DNA of 64,000 nt from Flavobacteriia bacterium (GTDB lineage Bacteria > Bacteroidota > Bacteroidia > Flavobacteriales_D > Crocinitomicaceae): assembly GCA_947446925.1 (NCBI GenBank), contig CANFHU010000002.1, positions 62,001 through 126,000 on the forward strand, read 5' to 3'. The first letter of the stretch is position 1, and each line of letters begins with the position of its first letter. The notes under the pieces are model-generated. The model ran no database searches, was not told the DNA's origin, and saw nothing but the letters and a program-made list of their open reading frames with translations. The translations under genes were made by a program, and so were the position numbers. Below are positions 12,586 through 64,000 of this stretch, piece by piece.

Positions 12586-13479
12586 TTAATTTACAAGTTC
12601 TATACTTGCAGAAGAAGAAGGGAAAGAGCGATCTACTTTTTTGAATAAACCTTGTAAAACTTTCCCTGGTCCAACTTCAACAACTTCTGTTGCACCATCT
12701 GCAATCATTTCTTGCATCGTTTGAGTCCAACGAACAGGAGCTGTTAATTGTTCAATTAAATTCTTTTTAATTTCATTTGGGTCAGAAACTGCAGATGCAG
12801 TTACATTTTGGTAAACTGGACAAATAGGAGTAGCAAATTCGGTTGCTTCAATTGCTTTTGCTAATTCTTCACGCGCAGATTCCATTAAAGGAGAATGGAA
12901 AGCACCACCAACTTGTAATAATACCGCCATTTTAGCTCCTGCTTCTTTGAGTTTCGCACAAGCTTCTTCTACAGCAGTTGTTTCTCCGGAAATAACTAAT
13001 TGTCCGGGACAGTTATAGTTTGCAGCTACAACAACACCATCAATTCCAGCACAAATATCTTCGATTACATGATCTTCTAATCCAATAATTGCAGCCATAG
13101 TAGAAGGAACGGATTCACATGCTTTTTGCATCGCTAATGCGCGTTTATGCACCAAGTTTAAACCATCTTCAAAACGTAAAGTTTTATTCGCAACTAATGC
13201 AGAAATCTCCCCTAATGAGTGACCCGCAACCATGTCTGGTTTAAAAGAATCTCCTAAACAAGCTGCCAAAATCGTTGAATGTAAAAAGATAGCAGGTTGT
13301 GTAATTTTAGTTTGTTTTAATTCTTCATCAGTTCCGTAAAACATGATTTTATGAATTTCAAATCCGAGAATTTCATCTGCTTTTAAGAATAATTCTTTAG
13401 CAATTTCAGATGAATCAAATAGGTCTTTACCCATTCCTGAGAATTGAGCGCCTTGACCTGGGAATACATATGCTTTCAT
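12586..13479 (-). CDS. fabD: Malonyl-CoA-ACP transacylase
   Basis: A 297-residue FabD that moves the malonyl group from CoA to acyl carrier protein for fatty acid synthesis. The N terminus has VFPGQGAQFSGMG. The nucleophile is Ser88 in GHSLG (86-90), and the catalytic His is His195 in GGAFHSPLM. The start at 13479 gives MKAYVFPGQG, the usual family beginning. It is read as the last gene of the minus-strand block and ends at the shared terminator at 12522-12577. Confidence 0.96.
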   Translation of the reverse strand: MKAYVFPGQGAQFSGMGKDLFDSSEIAKELFLKADEILGFEIHKIMFYGTDEELKQTKITQPAIFLHSTILAACLGDSFKPDMVAGHSLGEISALVANKTLRFEDGLNLVHKRALAMQKACESVPSTMAAIIGLEDHVIEDICAGIDGVVVAANYNCPGQLVISGETTAVEEACAKLKEAGAKMAVLLQVGGAFHSPLMESAREELAKAIEATEFATPICPVYQNVTASAVSDPNEIKKNLIEQLTAPVRWTQTMQEMIADGATEVVEVGPGKVLQGLFKKVDRSFPSSSASIELVN

Positions 13480-13541
13480 GATCTATATTTTTCTAATTTG
13501 ACGTGCGCAAATATACTCTTTGTGAAGTTTATATCAAAAAA

Positions 13542-13571
13542 AAACTCCCCGACAATACTGTCGAGGAGTTT
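13542..13571 (-). terminator. Terminator of the T9SS cargo gene
   Basis: The arms AAACTCC/GGAGTTT and CGAC/GTCG are separated by one C-A mismatch around the 6-nt loop AATACT. On the minus strand it is followed by a run of T. It lies 20 nt after the stop of the cargo gene. Confidence 0.85.
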
Positions 13572-13591
13572 CGTAGTAGATTAAAAACTAC

Positions 13592-15493
13592 TTATTGCAT
13601 TACACTAAATTTCTTGGTTACAACAGAGTTGTTAGAAACTACATTTAATACATACATTCCATTGTTGAATGCTTTTGTGTCAATGGTAACTTGGTTTACA
13701 CCAGAAAGACCTTTAACTGCATTCATAGAATAAACTACTTTTCCAGATAAATCTGTTACTGAGATGCTTAATTCGCTAGCATTTTGTAATTCAAACGTTG
13801 CGTCTATAGAAGTAGAAGCAGGGTTTGGATATAATTTCATGGAACGATTTAACATATCTAATTCGTTAATAGATGCCTTTTTTTCTGATAAATCAATTGT
13901 CATCGCTAATGGGTAATTTGAACCAAAAATTGATGGATATACTTTAGTATCAACAAATCCTAAAGTATATGGAGTTTTATAAAACGAAGATGTTATAAAA
14001 ACCGAATTAGGAACAGAGTAACCAAAATTTATTTTGTCGCTAGATGGAGTGATACAAAATGCATATTTCTTATTATCTTCTAACGGAATATTATCATCAA
14101 ATTTTACATGTTGATAAATAGTAGAAAGGGATTCTGTAAAAGTGAAAGATTGATTTTCAATAAGTGCAACATTCTTATCTTTCGTGAAAACAACATTTGT
14201 TTTAGGGAAATCAAATACGTCATTCCATTCCCAAACGGTGTAACTAATTTTATCGTCTTTTAGTAACGCATTTGCATTGTTTACATCTGCTGCTTGTACC
14301 CAAAATGATATTCCATTAGCTTGCAATCTACTAGCATTTGGATCCTGAAAAACAATACAGTCAGTCCAGTTAGTGAAATCTAACGTTGCTGATTTAGTTA
14401 ATTTGTCAAAGAAATATAAGTCTGCATTATCTTTATATGCTTTTGTAGTTTTTGTTACAGGGTCAGTAAATGTTGTATTAGCTAATGGTGCAATTCCAAA
14501 TAAAGAATCTGAAACATAAAAATTAGAAATTAATTTGTTATCCACAGGATAATCTTCTACAATGCTATCTAATTTGGTAGAATTATTATCATAATTTAAT
14601 ATTTCCAATGTCAATGTATATTTCCCAGAAACTAAATCATTTTTTGGATTGAAATTTTTATTGAAGAACAAATAGTTTGTAGTATCTCCAGCATTTATAG
14701 TATCAGGAACTAATTTTTTATTACTATCTAACGAAGCAAAGAAAATAGTATCCGAATAGATAACACTATTTTTTTCGTTTTTGATTACAGCGCTATAAAG
14801 AACATTTGTTTGTTTCAATTTTCCTTTGTTAAAAATTCTAACAGCTAACGTGTCGTTTACTTCTCCCTCTAATGTTAATTTGGAATTTCTAGTAAAATAT
14901 CTAGGCTGAATAGTATATTTCCAACTTAAAGCAAGATCATTATCGTATACTAATTTTTTACCTATGTAGGCATTAACAGGTTCTTTTTTTAGTACATTTT
15001 TTAATTTTATTCCATCTTTAAGTGTAATAATAATTACTGGTATTTTCACTTGTAATCCACTTAAATCTGGACTAACCGAACCTTGTAAGTTAATAATGTT
15101 ATTGGAATCTTTTTTAATCACATTTCCTTTATCATCAAAGATGTTTTCATGGTTTATGATCACAACAGCAATTGCACCCGCGTTTTGTGCCATTAATGCT
15201 TTTGTAACAAAAGGACCTCCTCCTCTATGAACTACAGCAATTTTACCTGTGTAATTACCAACTAAAGCAACTAATGCTAAAGAGTCTGCGCCTAGTGCTA
15301 ATTGTAAATCACCAGTAACACTTACATTTTTTATTGTATCATTCCCCCAAGTTTTTCCAGGTTGAATAGTAGGGTCACCATAACCAAAACTATAAAATCC
15401 TTTAATGGATGCTGGAGATTTAATTTCAAACACTGCTTGAGCGTTTGCAGCCAGTCCCAAGACTAACATCGTAAATAGTAAAATAATTTTCAT
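13592..15493 (-). CDS. T9SS cargo protein with PA domain and type A sorting domain
   Basis: A 633-residue secreted protein. It has a signal peptide at residues 1-19 (ends ANAQA). A protease-associated (PA) domain covers about residues 70-160, with GKIAVVHRGGGPF and AGAIAVVIINHE. A long beta-rich middle follows, then a C-terminal type A sorting domain (KLYPNPASTSIDATF ... DLSGKVVY ... NNGMYVLNVVSNN) over the last about 80 residues. The sorting domain predicts export through the type IX system whose genes lie at 48107-56096, followed by cell-surface attachment or release. No peptidase catalytic motif was found, so the PA domain here probably has a binding or structural role. Confidence 0.88.
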   Translation of the reverse strand: MKIILLFTMLVLGLAANAQAVFEIKSPASIKGFYSFGYGDPTIQPGKTWGNDTIKNVSVTGDLQLALGADSLALVALVGNYTGKIAVVHRGGGPFVTKALMAQNAGAIAVVIINHENIFDDKGNVIKKDSNNIINLQGSVSPDLSGLQVKIPVIIITLKDGIKLKNVLKKEPVNAYIGKKLVYDNDLALSWKYTIQPRYFTRNSKLTLEGEVNDTLAVRIFNKGKLKQTNVLYSAVIKNEKNSVIYSDTIFFASLDSNKKLVPDTINAGDTTNYLFFNKNFNPKNDLVSGKYTLTLEILNYDNNSTKLDSIVEDYPVDNKLISNFYVSDSLFGIAPLANTTFTDPVTKTTKAYKDNADLYFFDKLTKSATLDFTNWTDCIVFQDPNASRLQANGISFWVQAADVNNANALLKDDKISYTVWEWNDVFDFPKTNVVFTKDKNVALIENQSFTFTESLSTIYQHVKFDDNIPLEDNKKYAFCITPSSDKINFGYSVPNSVFITSSFYKTPYTLGFVDTKVYPSIFGSNYPLAMTIDLSEKKASINELDMLNRSMKLYPNPASTSIDATFELQNASELSISVTDLSGKVVYSMNAVKGLSGVNQVTIDTKAFNNGMYVLNVVSNNSVVTKKFSVMQ

Positions 15494-54869: not shown

Positions 54870-56096
54870 ATGATGAAGAATATTTTTATAGTATGTCTTT
54901 TTTTATTTTCCTTATTCACTTTTGGACAAAAAAAAACGTATACTCAAAATGATTTACAGTTGAATACGATTACTACTTCGATGCCATTTTTAAGTATTAA
55001 TCCTGATGCTCGTTCTGGAGGTTTAGGGGATGCTGGAACAGCATTAAGTCCGAATGCCAATTCTGTTTTTTGGAATACTGCTGGTGTTAGTTTTTCTAAG
55101 AATCAATTTGAAATAGGTGGCTCTGTTACACCTTGGTTGAGACAATTAAGTCATGACATTAATTTATATTATATTTCCGGATATAGAAAGTTTAATGATC
55201 GTAATTCTTTCGTTTTTTCATTACGTCAATTTACATTAGGTGAGATTACTTATACGGATCAAAACGGAGCCGTCTTACGTCCTGATAAACCATCAGAACA
55301 GGAAGTAGTAATTGGTTATGCATTAAAATTGTCTGATAAATTTAGTTTGGGAGTAAATGGAAAATTTGCGTATTCGAATTTGACAGGTGGTATGATAGTT
55401 TCAGGGGCTCAGACCAAGGCAGGAATTGCAGGAGCAGCAGATATTTCGTTTATGTATTTTAATAATAATGTGAATTGGTTTGGGAAAACTGGAGAATGGA
55501 GATTGGGAGCTACTATTAATAATGTTGGGAATAAAATTTCGTATTCAACTACCGCATCAAGTGATTTTTTACCAATGTCATTAAAATTAGGAAGTTCTTA
55601 TTTATCTAAGATGGATGAGTATAATAGTGTTACATTCACTTTGGATTTACAAAAATTATTAGTTCCAACGCCTCCTATTTATTATCAGGGAAATATAATA
55701 GCGGGTAAGAATAACAATGTAGGTGTAATTTCTGGGTTGCTACAATCTTTTGCAGATGCCCCTGGGGTAGTAGTTTATGATGCATCCAATAAACCAGACT
55801 TGGTTGATGGTAGAGCTAAAATAGTAAAAGGTTCACGTTTGAAAGAAGAATTAAGTGAGATTACAATTTCGGGTGGTTTTGAATATAATTACAATAAAGT
55901 GTTTGCTGTTAGAGGTGGGTATTTTTATGAGAGCATTAATAAAGGGGGCAGACAATTTGCTACATTTGGTGCAGGATTAAAATACAATATTATGCAAATT
56001 GATATGTCTTATATTGTACCTGTTACTAGAAATAGTCCGTTAGCAAATACCTTACGTTTTTCATTGTTATTTAATATTTCAACAAAACAAGATTAA
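54870..56096 (+). CDS. porV: Type IX secretion outer-membrane protein PorV
   Basis: A 408-residue beta-barrel (FadL-like) with a signal peptide (NIFIVCLFLFSLFTFGQ). Family segments are PFLSINPDARSGGLGDAGTALSPNANSVFWN and a C-terminal run of amphipathic strands ending RFSLLFNIS. PorV shuttles cargo from the translocon to PorU. It is placed directly after porU and 1 nt before ispF, so the three may share transcripts. Confidence 0.95.
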   Translation: MMKNIFIVCLFLFSLFTFGQKKTYTQNDLQLNTITTSMPFLSINPDARSGGLGDAGTALSPNANSVFWNTAGVSFSKNQFEIGGSVTPWLRQLSHDINLYYISGYRKFNDRNSFVFSLRQFTLGEITYTDQNGAVLRPDKPSEQEVVIGYALKLSDKFSLGVNGKFAYSNLTGGMIVSGAQTKAGIAGAADISFMYFNNNVNWFGKTGEWRLGATINNVGNKISYSTTASSDFLPMSLKLGSSYLSKMDEYNSVTFTLDLQKLLVPTPPIYYQGNIIAGKNNNVGVISGLLQSFADAPGVVVYDASNKPDLVDGRAKIVKGSRLKEELSEITISGGFEYNYNKVFAVRGGYFYESINKGGRQFATFGAGLKYNIMQIDMSYIVPVTRNSPLANTLRFSLLFNISTKQD

Positions 56097-56097
56097 A

Positions 56098-56586
56098 ATG
56101 ACTTCATTACGAATAGGATATGGAATTGATGTTCATCGTTTGGGTGAAGGGTATAAGTTGATTGTAGGAGGAGTAGAAATTCCTTCAGTTTTTGGTGCAA
56201 TAGGTCATTCGGATGCAGATGTTTTAATACATGCAATTTGCGATGCATTGTTAGGTGCTGCCAATTTACGCGATATAGGTTACCATTTTTCGGATACCGA
56301 TCCTCAATATAAAGGAATAGATAGTACACTACTTTTGGAGCGTGTAGTTGAACTGATTGCAAATAAAGGTTTTTCTGTTGTAAATATTGATTGTACTGTT
56401 ATTTTGGAGAAACCTAAGGTAAATCCGCATGTACCTGCGATGCAAAAGATAATTGCTGCTATTTTAAAAGTTACAGAAGAAGAGGTTTCTATCAAAGCAT
56501 CTACACATGAAAAAGTGGATTCGTTTGGCGAGAGTAAAGCAATAAAAGCGTATGCTTCTTGTTTACTTGAAAAGAATATAGGATAG
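56098..56586 (+). CDS. ispF: 2-C-methyl-D-erythritol 2,4-cyclodiphosphate synthase
   Basis: A 162-residue enzyme of the MEP isoprenoid pathway. The metal site starts GIDVHRLGEG (Asp11, His13), with GHSDADVLIHAICDALLGAANLRDIG and STHEKVDSFGESKAI as further signatures. Length is normal. It begins 1 nt after porV and ends 4 nt before a convergent gene. Confidence 0.97.
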   Translation: MTSLRIGYGIDVHRLGEGYKLIVGGVEIPSVFGAIGHSDADVLIHAICDALLGAANLRDIGYHFSDTDPQYKGIDSTLLLERVVELIANKGFSVVNIDCTVILEKPKVNPHVPAMQKIIAAILKVTEEEVSIKASTHEKVDSFGESKAIKAYASCLLEKNIG

Positions 56587-56590
56587 TATA

Positions 56591-56881
56591 TCAGTTAGTT
56601 ACTAATTGCATACTCCATGCTTCTGCTTTTAGTTCAAACCAAGGTTTTATTGTTGGCCATATAGCTTTAAAAAGTTCAGAATTTCGATAATTGTTTAGAT
56701 CGTTTTCTGTTTCCCATTTACTATGAGTAATAAAAACAGCGGGATTATGTATGTCTTGAGTCATAAACATTTCGATACAACCAGGTTGCTTATTTACTTT
56801 AGTTACAACTTCGTTAAAGAGTTCTAAAAATGAACCGATTTTATTTGTTTGAAAGTGTAATTTTACAATTCTGTAAATCAT
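56591..56881 (-). CDS. ABM-family monooxygenase-like protein
   Basis: A 96-residue single antibiotic-biosynthesis-monooxygenase (ABM) domain, a dimeric ferredoxin-like fold. It contains NKQPGCIEMFMTQD and FITHSKWETENDLNNYRNSELFKAIWP, as in quinol monooxygenases of the YgiN type. The substrate is unknown. It overlaps the SAM hydroxide adenosyltransferase gene by 4 nt, so they are probably coupled. Confidence 0.88.
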   Translation of the reverse strand: MIYRIVKLHFQTNKIGSFLELFNEVVTKVNKQPGCIEMFMTQDIHNPAVFITHSKWETENDLNNYRNSELFKAIWPTIKPWFELKAEAWSMQLVTN

Positions 56882-57741
56882 AGGAATAGCGATTCTAACG
56901 TGTCTTTTGATCCTCTCGGAGTAAATTCTACTCTTATGATATCATTTATACTCATTCCGAAAAGTGCTGTAGCACTATTTCTTCTATCCGTTGCCCCTTG
57001 ATTTAAAGCAATTTCAAGATAGTCGTTAGAGTTAAAGATTGCTACCTTTTCTCCTTTAGGTACATCTGAATAGGAAATGGAGATAGTATCTATAAAATAT
57101 TCTTTTCTGCGGAAGAAAATAGTGAATGGAATATCTTTATCAAATTTATTAAAGTCAGCGCGCGTTATATTGGTTATTAAATTTCCAAAGTGATCAATAT
57201 GAATTACATTTCCTTTGATAACATTTTCTTCAAAAACGGGTTGGAAAGTATACGCTTTTTGGAAATCTTCAAATTCAGAGCAAAAAGAATCTATTGCTAC
57301 TCCAGAAGAAATTTTACATGCTGCAGGTACTAAAATGTTTTTTGTTGGAAATTTAAAAACATTTTTAGACGATAGTACATCATCAATTCTCCAAAATCCT
57401 TGATGTGTATCCTCGCCAATCAAAAGGCTAAAAAAACCATTATCATTCGAAATGAAAAAATGGTCTTTATATTTCATAATTGCTGGGTAAGAACTCAAAG
57501 AATCATCCATTAAATTAATCATTGGTTCGCTATTTACCCCCATGATATGAACGGTCCCTTTAGGGAATTCTTGGAAACAATTTTGAAGAACAAATGTAGC
57601 TTGTAGTATTGAAAAAGATTGAACTTCGTGCGTAATGTCAATGATCTGAATTTGGTCAATATGAGATAGAATTGCACCTTTTATAGCAGCAACATAATGG
57701 TCTTTCAAACCCATGTCTGTTGTAAGCGTAATTATTGGCAT
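56878..57741 (-). CDS. SAM hydroxide adenosyltransferase (DUF62 family)
   Basis: A 287-residue enzyme of the family that cleaves S-adenosylmethionine with water to adenosine and methionine, related to fluorinases and chlorinases. The N-terminal substrate loop is TLTTDMGLKDHYVAAIKGA, followed by IDITHEVQSFSILQATFVL and HIDHFGNLITNI. Halogenase activity is not expected without the characteristic loops. Its role in the cell is unclear. It is upstream of the overlapping ABM gene. Confidence 0.9.
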   Translation of the reverse strand: MPIITLTTDMGLKDHYVAAIKGAILSHIDQIQIIDITHEVQSFSILQATFVLQNCFQEFPKGTVHIMGVNSEPMINLMDDSLSSYPAIMKYKDHFFISNDNGFFSLLIGEDTHQGFWRIDDVLSSKNVFKFPTKNILVPAACKISSGVAIDSFCSEFEDFQKAYTFQPVFEENVIKGNVIHIDHFGNLITNITRADFNKFDKDIPFTIFFRRKEYFIDTISISYSDVPKGEKVAIFNSNDYLEIALNQGATDRRNSATALFGMSINDIIRVEFTPRGSKDTLESLFL

Positions 57742-57776
57742 CTTTAATTATTGATGTGTGATTGACAAAAAAAATA

Positions 57777-57784
57777 TAACTTTG
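57777..57784 (+). promoter_or_regulatory. -7 box of the PhoH-like gene
   Basis: TAACTTTG matches TAnnTTTG, with a possible TTG -33 element at 57751-57753 (23-nt spacer). It lies about 60 nt before the TTG start codon. Confidence 0.4.
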
Positions 57785-57845
57785 GTGTAAAATTAAGATT
57801 TATTCTAACAAGAAAGTTCAATTACACATTTTATAACGAATATTT

Positions 57846-58805
57846 TTGGAGAAAATTTGCACATTAGAAGGGATTAATCCAGTTGATTTTTTTGGAGTTA
57901 ATAATGTTTATTTACAAATACTTAAACGTTATTATCCGAAATTAAAAATAGTATCAAGGGGAAATGATTTGACATTAATCGGAGATGATGAAGTAATTGC
58001 TTTGTTTGAACGAAAATTAAATCAATTGATGGACTATTATCATCGTTATAACACTTTGAATGAAAATATTATAGAACAAATTCTCTTAGAAGATCCAAGT
58101 TTAAAACCAGTAACACAAGGTGACGAAGTACTTGTACATGGAAATAACGGGTCGAAGATAAAGGCCAAAACAATTAATCAGCAAAAGTTAGTAGCGGAAA
58201 CGAATAAACATGCAATGGTGTTCGCTGTTGGTCCTGCTGGAACTGGTAAAACATACACGGCAATCGCTTTAGCAGTACGTGCATTAAAAGCAAAGGAGGT
58301 TAAACGTATTGTATTGACTAGACCAGCAGTGGAGGCAGGAGAAAATCTTGGTTTTTTGCCAGGAGATATGAAAGATAAACTAGATCCTTACATGATGCCA
58401 CTTTATGATGCTTTAAGGGATATGATTCCACCTGAAAAGTTAATTCAAATGATGGAATATGGTATTATAGAAATTGCGCCACTAGCATTTATGCGTGGTC
58501 GAACGTTGGATAATGCTTTTGTGATTTTGGATGAGGCTCAAAATGCTACCGTGATGCAAATGAAGATGTTTTTGACACGTATGGGGCAAACAGCACAGTT
58601 TGTAGTAACTGGAGATATGTCTCAAATAGATTTACCTTCTAAGCAACGATCAGGACTTTCCTATGCATTAGATGCATTGAAGGGAGTGGAAGGTATCGGT
58701 GTTGTTCGATTAAATCAAAATGACGTTATTCGTCATCCTTTGGTTAAAAAAATAATTGAAGCGTTTGAGAAGAAAGAACATTTAGATAAAAAAGAAGAAA
58801 AATAG
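57846..58805 (+). CDS. PhoH-family ATPase, TTG start
   Basis: A 319-residue P-loop protein of the PhoH family. The Walker A motif is GPAGTGKTYT (about residues 133-142), GENLGFLPGDMKDKLDPY follows, and the Walker B motif is FVILDEAQNA. The usual N-terminal segment DFFGVNNVYLQILKRYYPK is present. The start is taken as TTG at 57846, because an in-frame stop lies just upstream (57834) and no ATG precedes the conserved N-terminal region. It is probably an RNA-related ATPase. purC follows 6 nt later. Confidence 0.9.
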   Translation: MEKICTLEGINPVDFFGVNNVYLQILKRYYPKLKIVSRGNDLTLIGDDEVIALFERKLNQLMDYYHRYNTLNENIIEQILLEDPSLKPVTQGDEVLVHGNNGSKIKAKTINQQKLVAETNKHAMVFAVGPAGTGKTYTAIALAVRALKAKEVKRIVLTRPAVEAGENLGFLPGDMKDKLDPYMMPLYDALRDMIPPEKLIQMMEYGIIEIAPLAFMRGRTLDNAFVILDEAQNATVMQMKMFLTRMGQTAQFVVTGDMSQIDLPSKQRSGLSYALDALKGVEGIGVVRLNQNDVIRHPLVKKIIEAFEKKEHLDKKEEK

Positions 58806-58811
58806 AAAAAT

Positions 58812-59759
58812 ATGAGTAATACTATTAGTACCACTAATTATAATTTTCCTGGCCAGTTATCGGTTTACAAAGGAAAAGTGAGAGATGTTTATACATTAGA
58901 AAACGACCTTGTTGTAATGATAGCATCCGATCGTATTTCTGCTTTTGATCATGTATTACCTAAAGGTATTCCTTTTAAAGGGCAGGTTTTGAATCAAATA
59001 GCTACATTGTTTTTAAATGCTACGAAAGATATAGTTCCGAATTGGTTGTTAGCAACACCAGACCCATCCGTTTCCATAGGATTGAAGTGTGAACCAATTC
59101 GTGTAGAAATGGTAATTCGTGGTTATTTAGCAGGACATGCGGCGCGTGAATATGCGTTGGGTAAAAGAGAAGTGTGTGGTGTAACGCTACCAGAAGGTTT
59201 AAAAGAAAATGATCGTTTTCCGGAACCAATAATCACACCAACATTGAAAGCAGATGCTGGCCATGATGAAGATATTTCCAGAGAAGACATTATTGCTAAT
59301 AATTATGTATCAAAAGAAATTTATGAGCAATTAGAAGTCTACACACGAGCTTTATTTCAAAGGGGGACAGAAATGGCTTTGGAACGTGGATTATTATTGG
59401 TAGATACGAAGTATGAGTTTGGATTGAAGGACGGAAAAGTGATATTAATTGATGAGATTCATACGCCAGATTCTTCGCGTTATTTTTATGCAGATGGATA
59501 TGCTGAACGTCAAGCGAAAGGAGAGAATCAAAAACAATTATCCAAAGAGTTTGTGAGACAATGGTTAATTGATAATCATTTTCAAGGTTTGGAAGGACAA
59601 ACAATTCCGAATATGCCAGAAGAATTTGTACAATTAGTTACAGATCGTTACATCGAACTTTTTGAGAAAATTTCTGGTACAACGTTTATTAAAGCAGATA
59701 ATACATCTATTGAAACTAGAATTCAAAAAAATGTCGAAGAATATTTGAAATCGATTTAA
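58812..59759 (+). CDS. purC: SAICAR synthetase
   Basis: A 315-residue enzyme that joins CAIR and aspartate in purine synthesis. Motifs are [11 protein letters not shown] at the start, [41 protein letters not shown] and [13 protein letters not shown]. It is longer than the about 240-residue bacterial form and matches the larger SAICAR synthetase type. It lies directly after the PhoH gene and ends before a clear terminator. Confidence 0.95.
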
Positions 59760-59800
59760 TCTGAGATATTAGATTCTAGACATTAGACTTAAGATAACAT

Positions 59801-59830
59801 AGCCGTGAGATTATTCCCACGGCTTTTTTT
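59801..59830 (+). terminator. Terminator of the PhoH-purC unit
   Basis: A 7-bp GC-rich stem AGCCGTG/CACGGCT, extended by two pairs after one mismatch, is followed by a T run. Confidence 0.9.
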
Positions 59831-59918
59831 CTGATAATAATCAGTTTTTTTTCTAACAGCTGTCAACCTTTATTTTTATTGATTTTCAAATCTTTGCAGT
59901 ATACAAAATCAAATAAAA

Positions 59919-60203
59919 ATGGGAACAAGTAGTTTAGAAGCAAGTGTGATTAAAGAATCTGAGTTTAATCGTTTTGGATTAATTAGTATTATTTTATTAG
60001 TTGTAGGTTGTGTTGGAGGAGTAGCGGTTGGTTTAGGTGCAATTAAATATACTGGAACACTTATATTGTGTGTTCTTCCAACCATGACAACATTAAGTTT
60101 GTTGTTAGCTGTGGCTCCAATGAAATGGATTTGGAGATCCGCAACGTTAAGTTTGGCAATTGATTTTATTTTGATAATTTACTTTTTGTTTATTGAGAAA
60201 TAA
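59919..60203 (+). CDS. Small membrane protein of unknown function
   Basis: A 94-residue protein with three predicted membrane helices (about residues 20-40, 45-65 and 72-90). The short N-terminal stretch before the first helix is polar. No family is recognised. It has its own terminator hairpin downstream, so it is probably a single-gene unit. Confidence 0.7.
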   Translation: MGTSSLEASVIKESEFNRFGLISIILLVVGCVGGVAVGLGAIKYTGTLILCVLPTMTTLSLLLAVAPMKWIWRSATLSLAIDFILIIYFLFIEK

Positions 60204-60228
60204 GAATTGTTTGTAAATAGTTAGTTAG

Positions 60229-60257
60229 AACCCAAGATGAAATTCTTGGGTTTTTTT
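60229..60257 (+). terminator. Terminator of the small membrane protein gene
   Basis: The 9-bp stem AACCCAAGA/TCTTGGGTT is followed by a T run. An in-frame ATG at 60237 lies inside this hairpin and is not taken as a start. The T run also contributes the -33 element of the next promoter. Confidence 0.88.
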
Positions 60258-60285
60258 GTGTCTTTAATTTTGTATGTTAACTTTG
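60255..60285 (+). promoter_or_regulatory. Full Bacteroidota-type promoter, leaderless
   Basis: TTTG at 60255-60258 and TAACTTTG at 60278-60285 match the TTTG/TAnnTTTG consensus with a 19-nt spacer. The -7 box ends 5 nt before the ATG at 60291, so transcription should begin at about the start codon. Confidence 0.7.
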
Positions 60286-60290
60286 ATGAT

Positions 60291-60929
60291 ATGAAATTTT
60301 ATTGGTTTTTATATCTTGTTTTTTTGCTGTTTTCATGTCATTCAAAGGATAGAAAGGATGTTACTATGGATGATTTAAGTAAACCCTCTATACATTATAG
60401 ATTGAACGTAAAAAAACAACTTGTCAAATCACCAAAATCGAGAGCATATGATTCTATTTCTTTTTTTTCTAAAAAATTAGCAGATTCTTTAGGTATTACA
60501 AAAAATCAAATTCATCGTTTAAACAATTTGTTATTTCCAGACCGATTTAATCCAATAAAATCCGATAAGTGGTATGGAATTACGGCGAACGATTCCTTTG
60601 TATACAAACATTGGATGTACGTAGATTCAAATGTTGCTGAGAACACCTTTTACAATTGGTTAGATAATTTTGGAGATAAACATTTATCCTTGAAGTTTGG
60701 AGATAAAATGCGCGTTTCACCAAATGCTTTTGTACTTTTACTACAGCATCGAAGTGTTTTATTTTTGGAGTCTAAAAACCAACTAAACAAAAATAGAATT
60801 TTGTCACTAATAGATACTTTGGGTTTTGGGAGCACATGGAAATTTGTGCTGTTTCAAAATAAAGGAACAAAAACAGAATGGTTCGAAAAATTTAATATAA
60901 CCTCAAAAAATGAAAATCGTAAATCGTAG
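60291..60929 (+). CDS. Putative lipoprotein of unknown function
   Basis: A 212-residue protein starting at ATG 60291, which gives a short lipobox signal (FYWFLYLVFLLFSC). The frame also opens at 60237, but that ATG is inside a terminator hairpin. The mature part has a Ser/Lys-rich start and a globular region (IHRLNNLLFPDRFNP ... NWLDNFGDKHLSL) without a known motif. The promoter immediately before supports the start. The 3' end overlaps the next gene by 20 nt. Confidence 0.7.
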   Translation: MKFYWFLYLVFLLFSCHSKDRKDVTMDDLSKPSIHYRLNVKKQLVKSPKSRAYDSISFFSKKLADSLGITKNQIHRLNNLLFPDRFNPIKSDKWYGITANDSFVYKHWMYVDSNVAENTFYNWLDNFGDKHLSLKFGDKMRVSPNAFVLLLQHRSVLFLESKNQLNKNRILSLIDTLGFGSTWKFVLFQNKGTKTEWFEKFNITSKNENRKS

Positions 60930-61236
60930 TTACATTACAATTTATCCCAGACAAGCATTTTGGGATTGGGCAAATCAGTATAATTCTGACGTAAAATTTG
61001 ATGCAGAAGATGCAACCGAAGGAACAGTATATTTGGTTGAAGAAGATTTTTTTGATTTTGAACCAGTACTAGAGAAGAACTTTAAAAAGATGTTTAAAAA
61101 TGAACTTTCTAGTATAACGGATGAAGAAGAATATTGGCCAGTTAAACTATCGATGGAGTTGTTTTTAGAATGGTTTGTTATTGATTTTGGTTCGATTGTG
61201 GTTGATTTGGAGAAATCGGATTTGAGATCAGAATAA
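60910..61236 (+). CDS. Small acidic hypothetical protein
   Basis: A 108-residue acidic protein with a compact layout: RSYITIYPRQAFWDWANQYN, an acidic middle and a final helical stretch ending FVIDFGSIVVDLEKSD. Aromatic residues are frequent. No known domain is recognised, though similar small proteins occur in Bacteroidota. It overlaps the lipoprotein gene by 20 nt, so the two are probably coupled. Confidence 0.7.
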   Translation: MKIVNRSYITIYPRQAFWDWANQYNSDVKFDAEDATEGTVYLVEEDFFDFEPVLEKNFKKMFKNELSSITDEEEYWPVKLSMELFLEWFVIDFGSIVVDLEKSDLRSE

Positions 61237-61262
61237 CGGTCCTTCGAGAGCCTCAGGAACCG
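61237..61262 (+). repeat. Intergenic tandem repeat, copy 1
   Basis: CGGTCCTTCGAGAGCCTCAG followed by GAACCG. The ends CGGTCC/GGAACCG form an imperfect inverted repeat. It begins directly after the stop of the preceding gene. Confidence 0.8.
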
Positions 61263-61272
61263 AATTGAGTGA

Positions 61273-61297
61273 CGATCCTTCGAGAGACACAGTAACC
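61273..61297 (+). repeat. Intergenic tandem repeat, copy 2
   Basis: CGATCCTTCGAGAGACACAG followed by TAACC. It shares most positions with the copy at 61237 and is separated from it by 10 nt. Confidence 0.75.
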
Positions 61298-61312
61298 TAG
61301 ATATAAGATGAA

Positions 61313-62410
61313 ATGTATTTAAAGCATATTAATTTAATCAATTTTAAGAATTATGATCAGGCGGAATTTTCGCTTGAATCAGGAGTGAATTGCTTTGTAG
61401 GGAGGAATGGAATTGGTAAAACGAATGTGTTAGATGCAGTACATTACTTAAGTATGTGTAAGTCTTATTTGAATCCCATTGATAAGCAAAATATTCGCTT
61501 TGACGAGAAATTTTTTGTCGTACAAGGTCAATGGGATGTTGAAGGGGATGAGGTAGAAATTTATTGTGCAGTAAAGGCAGGAGAAAAAAAGGTTGTTAAA
61601 CGCAATAAGGTTACTTACGAAAAATTAGGAGATCACATAGGAGAATTCCCATCGGTGATTATTTCTCCGTATGATCGAGATTTGATTTCAGAGGGTAGTG
61701 AAGTAAGAAGACGTTGGGTGGATGGTATCATTTCCCAGTTTGATCGAGATTATTTATATGCATTGGTAAAATATTCCAAAGTACTTGATCAAAGGAATAT
61801 GTTATTGAAACAATTTTATGAAAATGGTTTTTTTGAACGGGAAAGTATTGAGGTTTGGGACATGCAGTTGGAAGCCATTGGGAATGAGGTTTATAAAAAA
61901 AGAATTTCATTTCTAGAAGAATTTATTCCTACGTTTCAATATTATTATGAATTTATTGGTAATGAAACGGAACACGTAAAACTGGAATATAAATCCCAAT
62001 TAAATGATACTTCGTTTGCAGATTTGTTGATTCAAAATTTGAAAAAAGATTCTTTTTCAGGGTATACGAATGCTGGGATTCATAAAGATGATTTTGTTTT
62101 CTTAATCAATGAACATTTAGTGAAAAAGTTTGGTTCACAAGGCCAACAAAAGTCTTTTGTGATTGCATTGCGATTGGCACAATTTGATTGGTTGAAAAAG
62201 CAATTGAATAAGAAGCCTATATTGCTTTTGGATGATATTTTCGACAAGTTAGATAATCATCGTGTGGAAAAATTGATGAAGTTGGTTTCTGATAATGTTT
62301 TTGGACAAGTATTAGTTACAGATACCGACAAAGAACGAGTTGCAACTATTTTTAATCGTATTTCCATGGATTACAAATTGTTTGACATGGTTGAATTAAT
62401 GGAGAAATAA
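61313..62410 (+). CDS. recF: DNA replication and repair protein RecF
   Basis: A 365-residue SMC-like ATPase that loads RecA at gaps with RecOR. The Walker A motif GRNGIGKTN is at residues 30-38. A signature-like SQGQQKSFVIALRLAQFD and a Walker B LLLDDIFDKLD follow. DFVFLINEHLVKKFGSQGQ is also typical. The next gene starts directly after its stop. Confidence 0.95.
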   Translation: MYLKHINLINFKNYDQAEFSLESGVNCFVGRNGIGKTNVLDAVHYLSMCKSYLNPIDKQNIRFDEKFFVVQGQWDVEGDEVEIYCAVKAGEKKVVKRNKVTYEKLGDHIGEFPSVIISPYDRDLISEGSEVRRRWVDGIISQFDRDYLYALVKYSKVLDQRNMLLKQFYENGFFERESIEVWDMQLEAIGNEVYKKRISFLEEFIPTFQYYYEFIGNETEHVKLEYKSQLNDTSFADLLIQNLKKDSFSGYTNAGIHKDDFVFLINEHLVKKFGSQGQQKSFVIALRLAQFDWLKKQLNKKPILLLDDIFDKLDNHRVEKLMKLVSDNVFGQVLVTDTDKERVATIFNRISMDYKLFDMVELMEK

Positions 62411-62713
62411 ATGGACGAACGAAAACGAATATCCAATCAAAGTACTCTTGGAGATGTGATTGATAAGTTAATGAAAGCGTATGGCTTAGATGGTCGCATG
62501 AAAGAAATGGAAATTATCAATAAGTGGGAAGAAATGATGGGTAGAGCAGTTTCTGCGCGAACCAAAAAGATTTATATCAAAAATCAGGTGCTACATTTAA
62601 CATTAGATTCATCTGTAATGCGCGACGAATTAATGCAAGGTAAATCAATTATTATTCAACGTGTAAATGAAACTGCAGGTTGCGTAATGATTAGAGATGT
62701 CTGGTTTAGTTAA
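62411..62713 (+). CDS. DUF721 (DciA-like) protein
   Basis: A 100-residue single-domain protein of the DUF721 family. STLGDVIDKLMKAYGLDGRMKE, then NKWEEMMGRAVSARTKKIYIKNQVL and SVMRDELMQGKSIIIQRVNE, are characteristic. DciA members help load the replicative helicase, but whether this shorter form does so is unknown. The recF-DUF721 adjacency is common across bacteria. Confidence 0.9.
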   Translation: MDERKRISNQSTLGDVIDKLMKAYGLDGRMKEMEIINKWEEMMGRAVSARTKKIYIKNQVLHLTLDSSVMRDELMQGKSIIIQRVNETAGCVMIRDVWFS

Positions 62714-62790
62714 ATCTTCCAAAAAAAACATTTACTTTTAAATAAATTCCTCAAAATTGCGTTAATTTTAATGCACTAATACCACTAACG

Positions 62791-64000
62791 ATGTTTCAAA
62801 AAATATTTACCTTTTCTATTTTATTATTTTCATTCAACTCCTATTCTCAGCAAAATGGGTTATTGAAAGATGCTAAAAAGATTGAAGAAATCTACAACTA
62901 TATACATTACATGTATGTGGACGATGTTAATTCTAAAGAAATTACAGAAACAGCAATTGTGGCTGCACTAGAGAAACTAGATCCACATTCCGTGTATATT
63001 TCCAAAGAAGATGTGGATGATGCAAACCAACAAATCAATGGAAGTTTCTTTGGTGTTGGCATTCGTTTTCAATTATTAAAAGATACTTTAATCGTGGTAG
63101 CAACAATTCCTGGTGGGCCATCAGAAAAAGTAGGCTTGCGAGCGGGGGATAAAATAGTGAAAGTTGGAACTGATAATATCGCAAATGTAAAGTTGAAGAA
63201 TTCTCAAGTACGTGAAAAATTGATGGGTGATTTGGGTAGTAAAGTAAAAGTAGAGGTAATTCGAAAAGGTGAACCGAATCTATTAAGTTTTGAGATTACA
63301 AGAGATAAAATTCCAATGCATTCTGTAGATTGTCATTATATGATTACTCCTGAAACTGGGTATTTAAAATTGAATAGTTTTTCACATACAACAACCGATG
63401 AAATCAAAGCAAGTTTAGTTGAGTTGACTAAAAAAGGAATGAAAAATTTGATTTTAGATTTGCAAGATAATGGGGGAGGTTTGATGTATGCAGCTAAAAC
63501 AGTAAGTGATGAGTTTTTGACAAAAGATAAGTTAGTTGTTTATTCTCAAGGAAAACACCAACCACGTCAGGATATGAATTGCGATACTAAAGGTTCGTTT
63601 GAAAAAGGGAAATTAATTGTATTAGTGAATGAAAATTCAGCTTCTGCAAGTGAAATAGTTTCAGGTGCAATACAAGACTGGGATCGAGGATTGATTGTCG
63701 GTCGAAGAACATTTGGAAAAGGATTAGTACAACGTCCAATAGATTTATCGGATGGTTCGCAAATCCGCTTGACGATTGCACGTTATTACACACCAACAGG
63801 TAGAAATATTCAAAAACCATATGGAGAAAATTCGGAAGAATATCACAATGATGTTTTGAAACGACTAAAACATGGGGAATTGATGAATCAAGATAGTATC
63901 AAATTTCCGGATTCTTTAAAATACAAAACGTTGGTTAAAGAGCGCACGGTATATGGTGGCGGTGGAATTATGCCAGATGTTTTTGTACCACTTGATACGA
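62791..64000 (+). CDS. S41 carboxy-terminal processing protease (partial, runs off the end)
   Basis: The first 403 codons of a tail-specific periplasmic protease; the stop is beyond the window. A signal peptide (IFTFSILLFSFNSYSQ) is followed by a short helical segment with KLDPHSVYISKED and a PDZ domain (about residues 85-160, VVATIPGGPSEKVGLRAGDKI). The catalytic Ser285 is in NENSASASEI and the Lys310 in RTFGKGLVQ. It starts 77 nt after the DUF721 gene. Confidence 0.93.
   Translation, partial: MFQKIFTFSILLFSFNSYSQQNGLLKDAKKIEEIYNYIHYMYVDDVNSKEITETAIVAALEKLDPHSVYISKEDVDDANQQINGSFFGVGIRFQLLKDTLIVVATIPGGPSEKVGLRAGDKIVKVGTDNIANVKLKNSQVREKLMGDLGSKVKVEVIRKGEPNLLSFEITRDKIPMHSVDCHYMITPETGYLKLNSFSHTTTDEIKASLVELTKKGMKNLILDLQDNGGGLMYAAKTVSDEFLTKDKLVVYSQGKHQPRQDMNCDTKGSFEKGKLIVLVNENSASASEIVSGAIQDWDRGLIVGRRTFGKGLVQRPIDLSDGSQIRLTIARYYTPTGRNIQKPYGENSEEYHNDVLKRLKHGELMNQDSIKFPDSLKYKTLVKERTVYGGGGIMPDVFVPLDT

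Follow-up and report, generated by a model that had tools for sequence, protein, structure and literature searches.

The locus lies on the plus strand towards the end of the window (the whole 64,000 nt stretch of contig CANFHU010000002.1 that was analysed). Beyond a PhoH-like gene and purC, an ORF of 94 aa (59919–60203), hydrophobic and judged by eye a probable membrane protein, is separated by an intergenic region of 87 nt from a predicted lipoprotein gene of 212 aa (60291–60929). The end of the lipoprotein gene is overlapped by an ORF of 108 aa (60910–61236), which is likely to be co-transcribed with it, and an SMC_N/recF-like gene and a DciA gene follow. None of the three proteins (212, 94 and 108 aa) matched a Pfam family at an E-value of 0.1 or below or exceeded the cut-off of an NCBIfam model. 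An Rfam search of 59600–61400 gave a sole, sub-threshold match, to STnc430 at 59791–59880 (23 bits; gathering score 47). After purC, a hairpin at 59801–59831 is followed by T7 on the plus strand, folds at -13.2 kcal/mol and is likely to be a terminator; the simple terminator scan reported it on the minus strand only. Two copies of a dispersed repeat of the TCCTTCGAGAGCCTCAG type lie at 61240–61292, after the 108-aa ORF and before the recF-like gene; the repeat occurs at 24 sites in the genome with at most one mismatch (reversed pattern: 0).

The predicted lipoprotein begins with a short signal peptide (MKFYWFLYLVFLLFSC) that ends at Cys16 and, judged by eye, follows the lipobox rule. The reading frame contains a second, upstream ATG at 60237, inside the hairpin described below and not mentioned before, from which the ORF is open in this species and in one relative (G009). 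As a start codon it is excluded by G008, G001, G005 and G010, in each of which an in-frame stop stands two codons upstream of the lipoprotein ATG. Since the frame is closed there in four relatives, we take the Met that corresponds to 60291 as the N-terminus. In the protein alignment, which excludes L016 and L022, all 10 homologues match from this Met onwards through signal peptide and Cys16, with Cys16 invariant.

Read directly from the sequence, the intergenic region contains, in order after the stop codon of the 94-aa ORF (60201–60203), a hairpin, a T run, a G at 60258, 19 nt, a -7 element, 5 nt and the ATG at 60291. The hairpin (60227–60254; 11 pairs, loop of 6) starts 23 nt from the stop codon and folds at -14.9 kcal/mol (z = -4.67), with none of 200 shuffles as good. 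The T7 run occupies 60251–60257, so that a GC-containing hairpin with an immediate T run, the make-up of an intrinsic terminator, spans 60227–60257. A terminator scan of 56000–64000 returned six terminator-like sites (3.2 in shuffles), this hairpin with its T tail among them. The last Ts and the following G form TTTG (60255–60258), a possible -33 element with a 19-nt spacer to TAACTTTG at 60278–60285, which has the form TAnnTTTG of the -7 element of sigma-ABfr promoters (TAHHTTTG in F. johnsoniae). All coordinates in the earlier note proved exact on this reading, and the packing of terminator and promoter into about 60 nt that it described is real, both the hairpin fold and the T run being confirmed.

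TAACTTTG ends 5 nt before the ATG. We took a gap of 4–5 nt between -7 element and start codon as the mark of a leaderless gene because, in the passages cited from the F. johnsoniae study, many of 434 putative promoters place the transcription start 4 or 5 nt after the -7 element (PMC6847099). Dinucleotide shuffling of the 87-nt region (20,000 shuffles) gave TAHHTTTG somewhere in 14% of cases and TAHHTTTG together with TTTG at a spacer of 18–21 in 1.4%. Only 0.4% placed TAHHTTTG 4–5 nt from the start codon, so the element exceeds chance at its position. The same spacing recurs in the genome. We sampled 864 kb of the 3.15-Mb genome (about a quarter, window included), which yielded 738 simple ORFs and 735 usable starts, all of them first-ATG calls of a simple ORF finder, and used 29 permuted motifs as control. 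TAHHTTTG stands at a gap of 4–5 nt in 18 of the 735 starts (permuted mean 0.76, maximum 3), at 6–13 nt in 7 (3.4, maximum 9) and at 14–40 nt, the leadered class, in 99 (13.8, maximum 36). Upstream of starts in this sample the motif thus falls into two classes, with gaps of 4–5 and 14–40 nt. The locus itself appears neither in the gap count nor in the automatic terminator–promoter counts given below, because the simple gene caller takes the ATG at 60237 as the start. In raw counts over 30 genomes of the family, coding DNA included, TAHHTTTG-N4-ATG occurs 2592 times (reversed 1199) against 2072 (reversed 1282) for the N9 spacing, and N4 outnumbers N9 in 24 of the 30.

The lipoprotein gene is present in 12 of 13 genomes of the genus searched, this species included; G004 gave no match. 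The DNA alignment comprises 11 loci, our own among them. The twelfth (L016 in G012) was omitted because its upstream region has neither a TAHHTTTG, none occurring in about 180 nt before its ATG, nor the 94-aa ORF. All 11 aligned loci, and hence 11 of 12 in the genus, carry a -7 element (TAAC, TACC or TACT followed by TTTG). The gap to the start codon is 5 nt in two of them, 4 nt in six and 15–17 nt in three, which makes the short gap a feature of 8 of the 11, one of these (G002) being uncertain as it counts only with a GTG start. As three loci have the longer gap, leaderlessness is not essential to the gene. Homologous hairpins were folded at seven of the 11 loci (our own and six others) and form at each; the other four were judged from the sequence, and the fold of L099, which covered the wrong, coding stretch, was not used. 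In the one more distant genus examined (L018), a gene for a beta-eliminating lyase, probably threonine aldolase, overlaps at its end with the lipoprotein gene. By eye, other distant lipoprotein loci resemble the L018 arrangement.

With the elements in place and conserved in the genus, and a leaderless class present in a quarter of the genome, we favour, at a probability of about 0.72, a terminator followed by a sigma-ABfr promoter that reads TAACTTTG and gives a leaderless lipoprotein mRNA, the sharing of the T run arising chiefly as a side effect of packing. Transcription of the 94-aa gene would terminate at the hairpin and T run. The sigma-ABfr-type primary sigma factor of Bacteroidota would recognize TAACTTTG, which lies about 20 bp downstream, and RNA would start at 60290–60291, 4–5 nt past the -7 element and on the ATG or 1 nt before it, with a predicted leader of 0–1 nt. 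The T run would fall in the upstream half of the promoter, where a weak -33 contact may occur, and its sharing would mainly follow from fitting a terminator and a leaderless promoter into 87 nt. Judged from the sequence, leaderless initiation of the lipoprotein mRNA is likely; it is well supported by the gap statistics, the conservation in the genus and published Flavobacterium work. The earlier expectation that the mRNA has almost no leader accordingly gains from the gap peak at 4–5 nt, from the related loci and from the spacing reported in the cited passages on F. johnsoniae (PMC6847099).

The earlier note had further held that the T run supplies the TTTG of the -33 element. By sequence, the last Ts of the run and the G after them do give a TTTG at 19 nt, and the -33 TTTG of sigma-ABfr promoters is found some 19–21 nt upstream of the -7 element. 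The stronger form of the claim, in which the T run is truly shared, TTTG at 19–20 nt is contacted by sigma region 4 and selection holds terminator and promoter in register, is possible but rather improbable. In its favour, TTTTTTTG stands at a spacer of 19 or 20 in 6 of the 11 aligned loci, the six closest; against this, TTTG is absent from the other five, where the T run lies 6, 22 or 24 nt away, and the T-run distance among the aligned loci as a whole spans 6 to 24 nt. Across the genome TTTG at this position is weak. Around 196 noncoding TAHHTTTG sites, spacer 19 is the joint commonest of 46 spacers for TTTG (6 sites, like spacer 12) and the third commonest for TTG (11, after 14 at spacer 0 and 13 at spacer 12). 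However, of 122 promoters near starts only 3 show TTTG with a spacing of 19 nt; the 19 other leaderless promoters include one with TTTG at 20 nt and none with it at 19 nt. No clear base-composition signal at -33 was seen in 124 noncoding promoters. In our genome, 20 of 83 matches to the longer TTTTTG, coding ones included, fall at spacers 19–20 where 9.0 are expected, an enrichment that is not significant in G001 (14 of 96 against 11.7). Only the spacer profile was used for TTTTTG, because reversed-pattern controls gave no excess in the total with a -7 element (44 + 39 against 49 + 39 in our genome, 46 + 50 against 46 + 45 in G001). That profile is weakened by a further, unexplained peak at spacer 12 (10) in our genome, and the profile of G001 is highest at spacer 16 (11). 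Moreover, terminator T runs in the sampled part of the genome end in G by habit (34 of 64), which makes TTTG less telling than the -7 element. In the passages cited on F. johnsoniae, the -7 motif stands out far more clearly than the -33 (PMC6847099).

The place at which a shared -33 element is better argued is not the lipoprotein locus but fabD (Acyl_transf_1), which lies in the same window on the minus strand with its ATG at 13479. Upstream of fabD, in 13480–13600 on the minus strand, the T run of a terminator gives TTTG exactly 19 nt from TATATTTG. In 8 of 12 loci of the genus, the end of the fabD T run lies exactly 20 nt upstream of the -7 element, and the spacers, each 19 nt long, share as little as 37% identity despite their fixed length; the gaps of L099 and L100, for which a wrong upstream ATG had been chosen, were not used. 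The remaining 4 of the 12 are off register (3, 16, 32 and none). Upstream of a gene we take to be uvrC (L107, on the minus strand of G000:C1 near 152853), only 3 nt lie between the end of the terminator T run and the -7 element of a promoter of the leaderless type, which counts against a shared -33. This distance is kept in 7 of 12 loci of the genus, one of which (L108, in G009) has no hairpin evident by eye. Taken together, the data speak only weakly for the T run as a working -33 element. Contact at -33 may occur here and at fabD; the conserved arrangement does not depend on it. That the T run is physically shared is true, and on the evidence from sequence this would be mostly a consequence of tight packing.

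Such packing is not confined to these genes. Among 218 co-directional gene pairs 40–400 nt apart, 13 combine a terminator with a -7 element, both no more than 60 nt from the start; the distance from T run to -7 element in these ranges from -1 to 210 nt and is 25 nt or less in 5 of the 13. A genome search for T6, 0–26 nt, TAHHTTTG, 4–5 nt and ATG gave 16 rows, corresponding to 13 places with the lipoprotein locus included, against 9 rows for the reversed pattern, the hairpin check covering a minority of the forward T runs. On the strength of the pair count and this search, the lipoprotein locus is probably one of several such packings, and since close packing recurs at fabD and uvrC it looks like ordinary compaction. 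At G000:C1:341780–341838, what by eye is a long hairpin has a T run that passes into the -7 element TATCTTTG, and an ATG follows this element after 4 nt. The overlap there is even tighter than at the lipoprotein locus, and the gene upstream is encoded on the opposite strand.

A different promoter could serve the gene in our own species. A second -7-like element, TAATTTTG at 60265–60272, had been overlooked. If it were the main one, transcription would start at about 60277 and leave a leader of about 14 nt. TAATTTTG is a full match to TAHHTTTG 18 nt from the ATG, a gap found at 5 of the 735 starts and falling among the leadered promoters. It is present in only 1 of the 11 aligned loci, as opposed to 11 of 11 for the downstream TAACTTTG, and its own -33 region would lie within the hairpin. 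We regard its use as the principal source of the mRNA as unlikely; it is nonetheless what most endangers the prediction of a leaderless mRNA, in this species only.

Still less probable is a leaky hairpin, with the lipoprotein made by readthrough from the 94-aa gene and extended at its N-terminus from the ATG at 60237. The frame open from that codon here and in G009 would allow it; against it stand the in-frame stops of G008, G001, G005 and G010, the onset of both homology and signal peptide at 60291, and a strong hairpin backed by T7. Least credible of all is a coupled module in which the polymerase, having released the 94-aa transcript, stays on the DNA and restarts at the ATG, so that expression tracks the upstream gene without a shared mRNA, fabD with its register fixed in 8 of 12 loci being the would-be second instance.

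We thus return to a terminator followed by a leaderless sigma-ABfr promoter. To our knowledge, the mRNAs of the phylum Bacteroidota lack Shine–Dalgarno sites. The promoter resembles the primary (sigma-ABfr) promoters of Bacteroidota, TTTG / TAnnTTTG, in its -7 element and in TTTG at 19 nt; it differs from a typical one in that this TTTG belongs to the T run of a terminator and is a putative -33 element only. In placing the -7 element 4–5 nt before the ATG, the gene resembles flavobacterial leaderless and short-leader mRNAs, from which it differs in that its start is predicted from the sequence and adjoins a terminator. Leaderless mRNAs are a known minority in flavobacteria. According to the passages cited, 87% of F. 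johnsoniae leaders exceed 10 nt, and hence about 13% are shorter (PMC6847099), and in F. psychrophilum leaderless genes account for 5.5% of the 890 CDSs mapped (PMC9723704). For B. thetaiotaomicron, the excerpt cited gives about 3.7% of 5' UTRs as shorter than 10 nt (PMC7366714). A large survey, as far as the portion cited goes, placed leaderless genes in 1 of 37 Bacteroidetes/Chlorobi genomes, by a method that detects Pribnow-like promoters only (PMC3160421).

A terminator beside a promoter, with local reinitiation as a possibility, also recalls the terminator-proximal promoters of E. coli, for which the cited parts of two studies describe post-termination recycling of RNA polymerase to nearby promoters in vitro (PMC6978380, PMC11347151). 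The present case differs in that the elements overlap within about 60 bp, and the E. coli recycling, demonstrated in vitro, has yet to be shown in vivo according to the cited part of the later paper (PMC11347151). Among the matches listed in a narrow literature search, no paper dealt with terminator–promoter overlap or recycling in Bacteroidota.

The arrangement looks like a compact, ordinary design for this group of bacteria. Terminators in this genus can adjoin or overlap the next promoter at conserved places, and TAHHTTTG followed by 4–5 nt and ATG is a clear sequence signature for leaderless genes in the phylum. If coupling of termination to reinitiation exists in the phylum, fabD, uvrC and the lipoprotein locus would be ready sites at which to test it.
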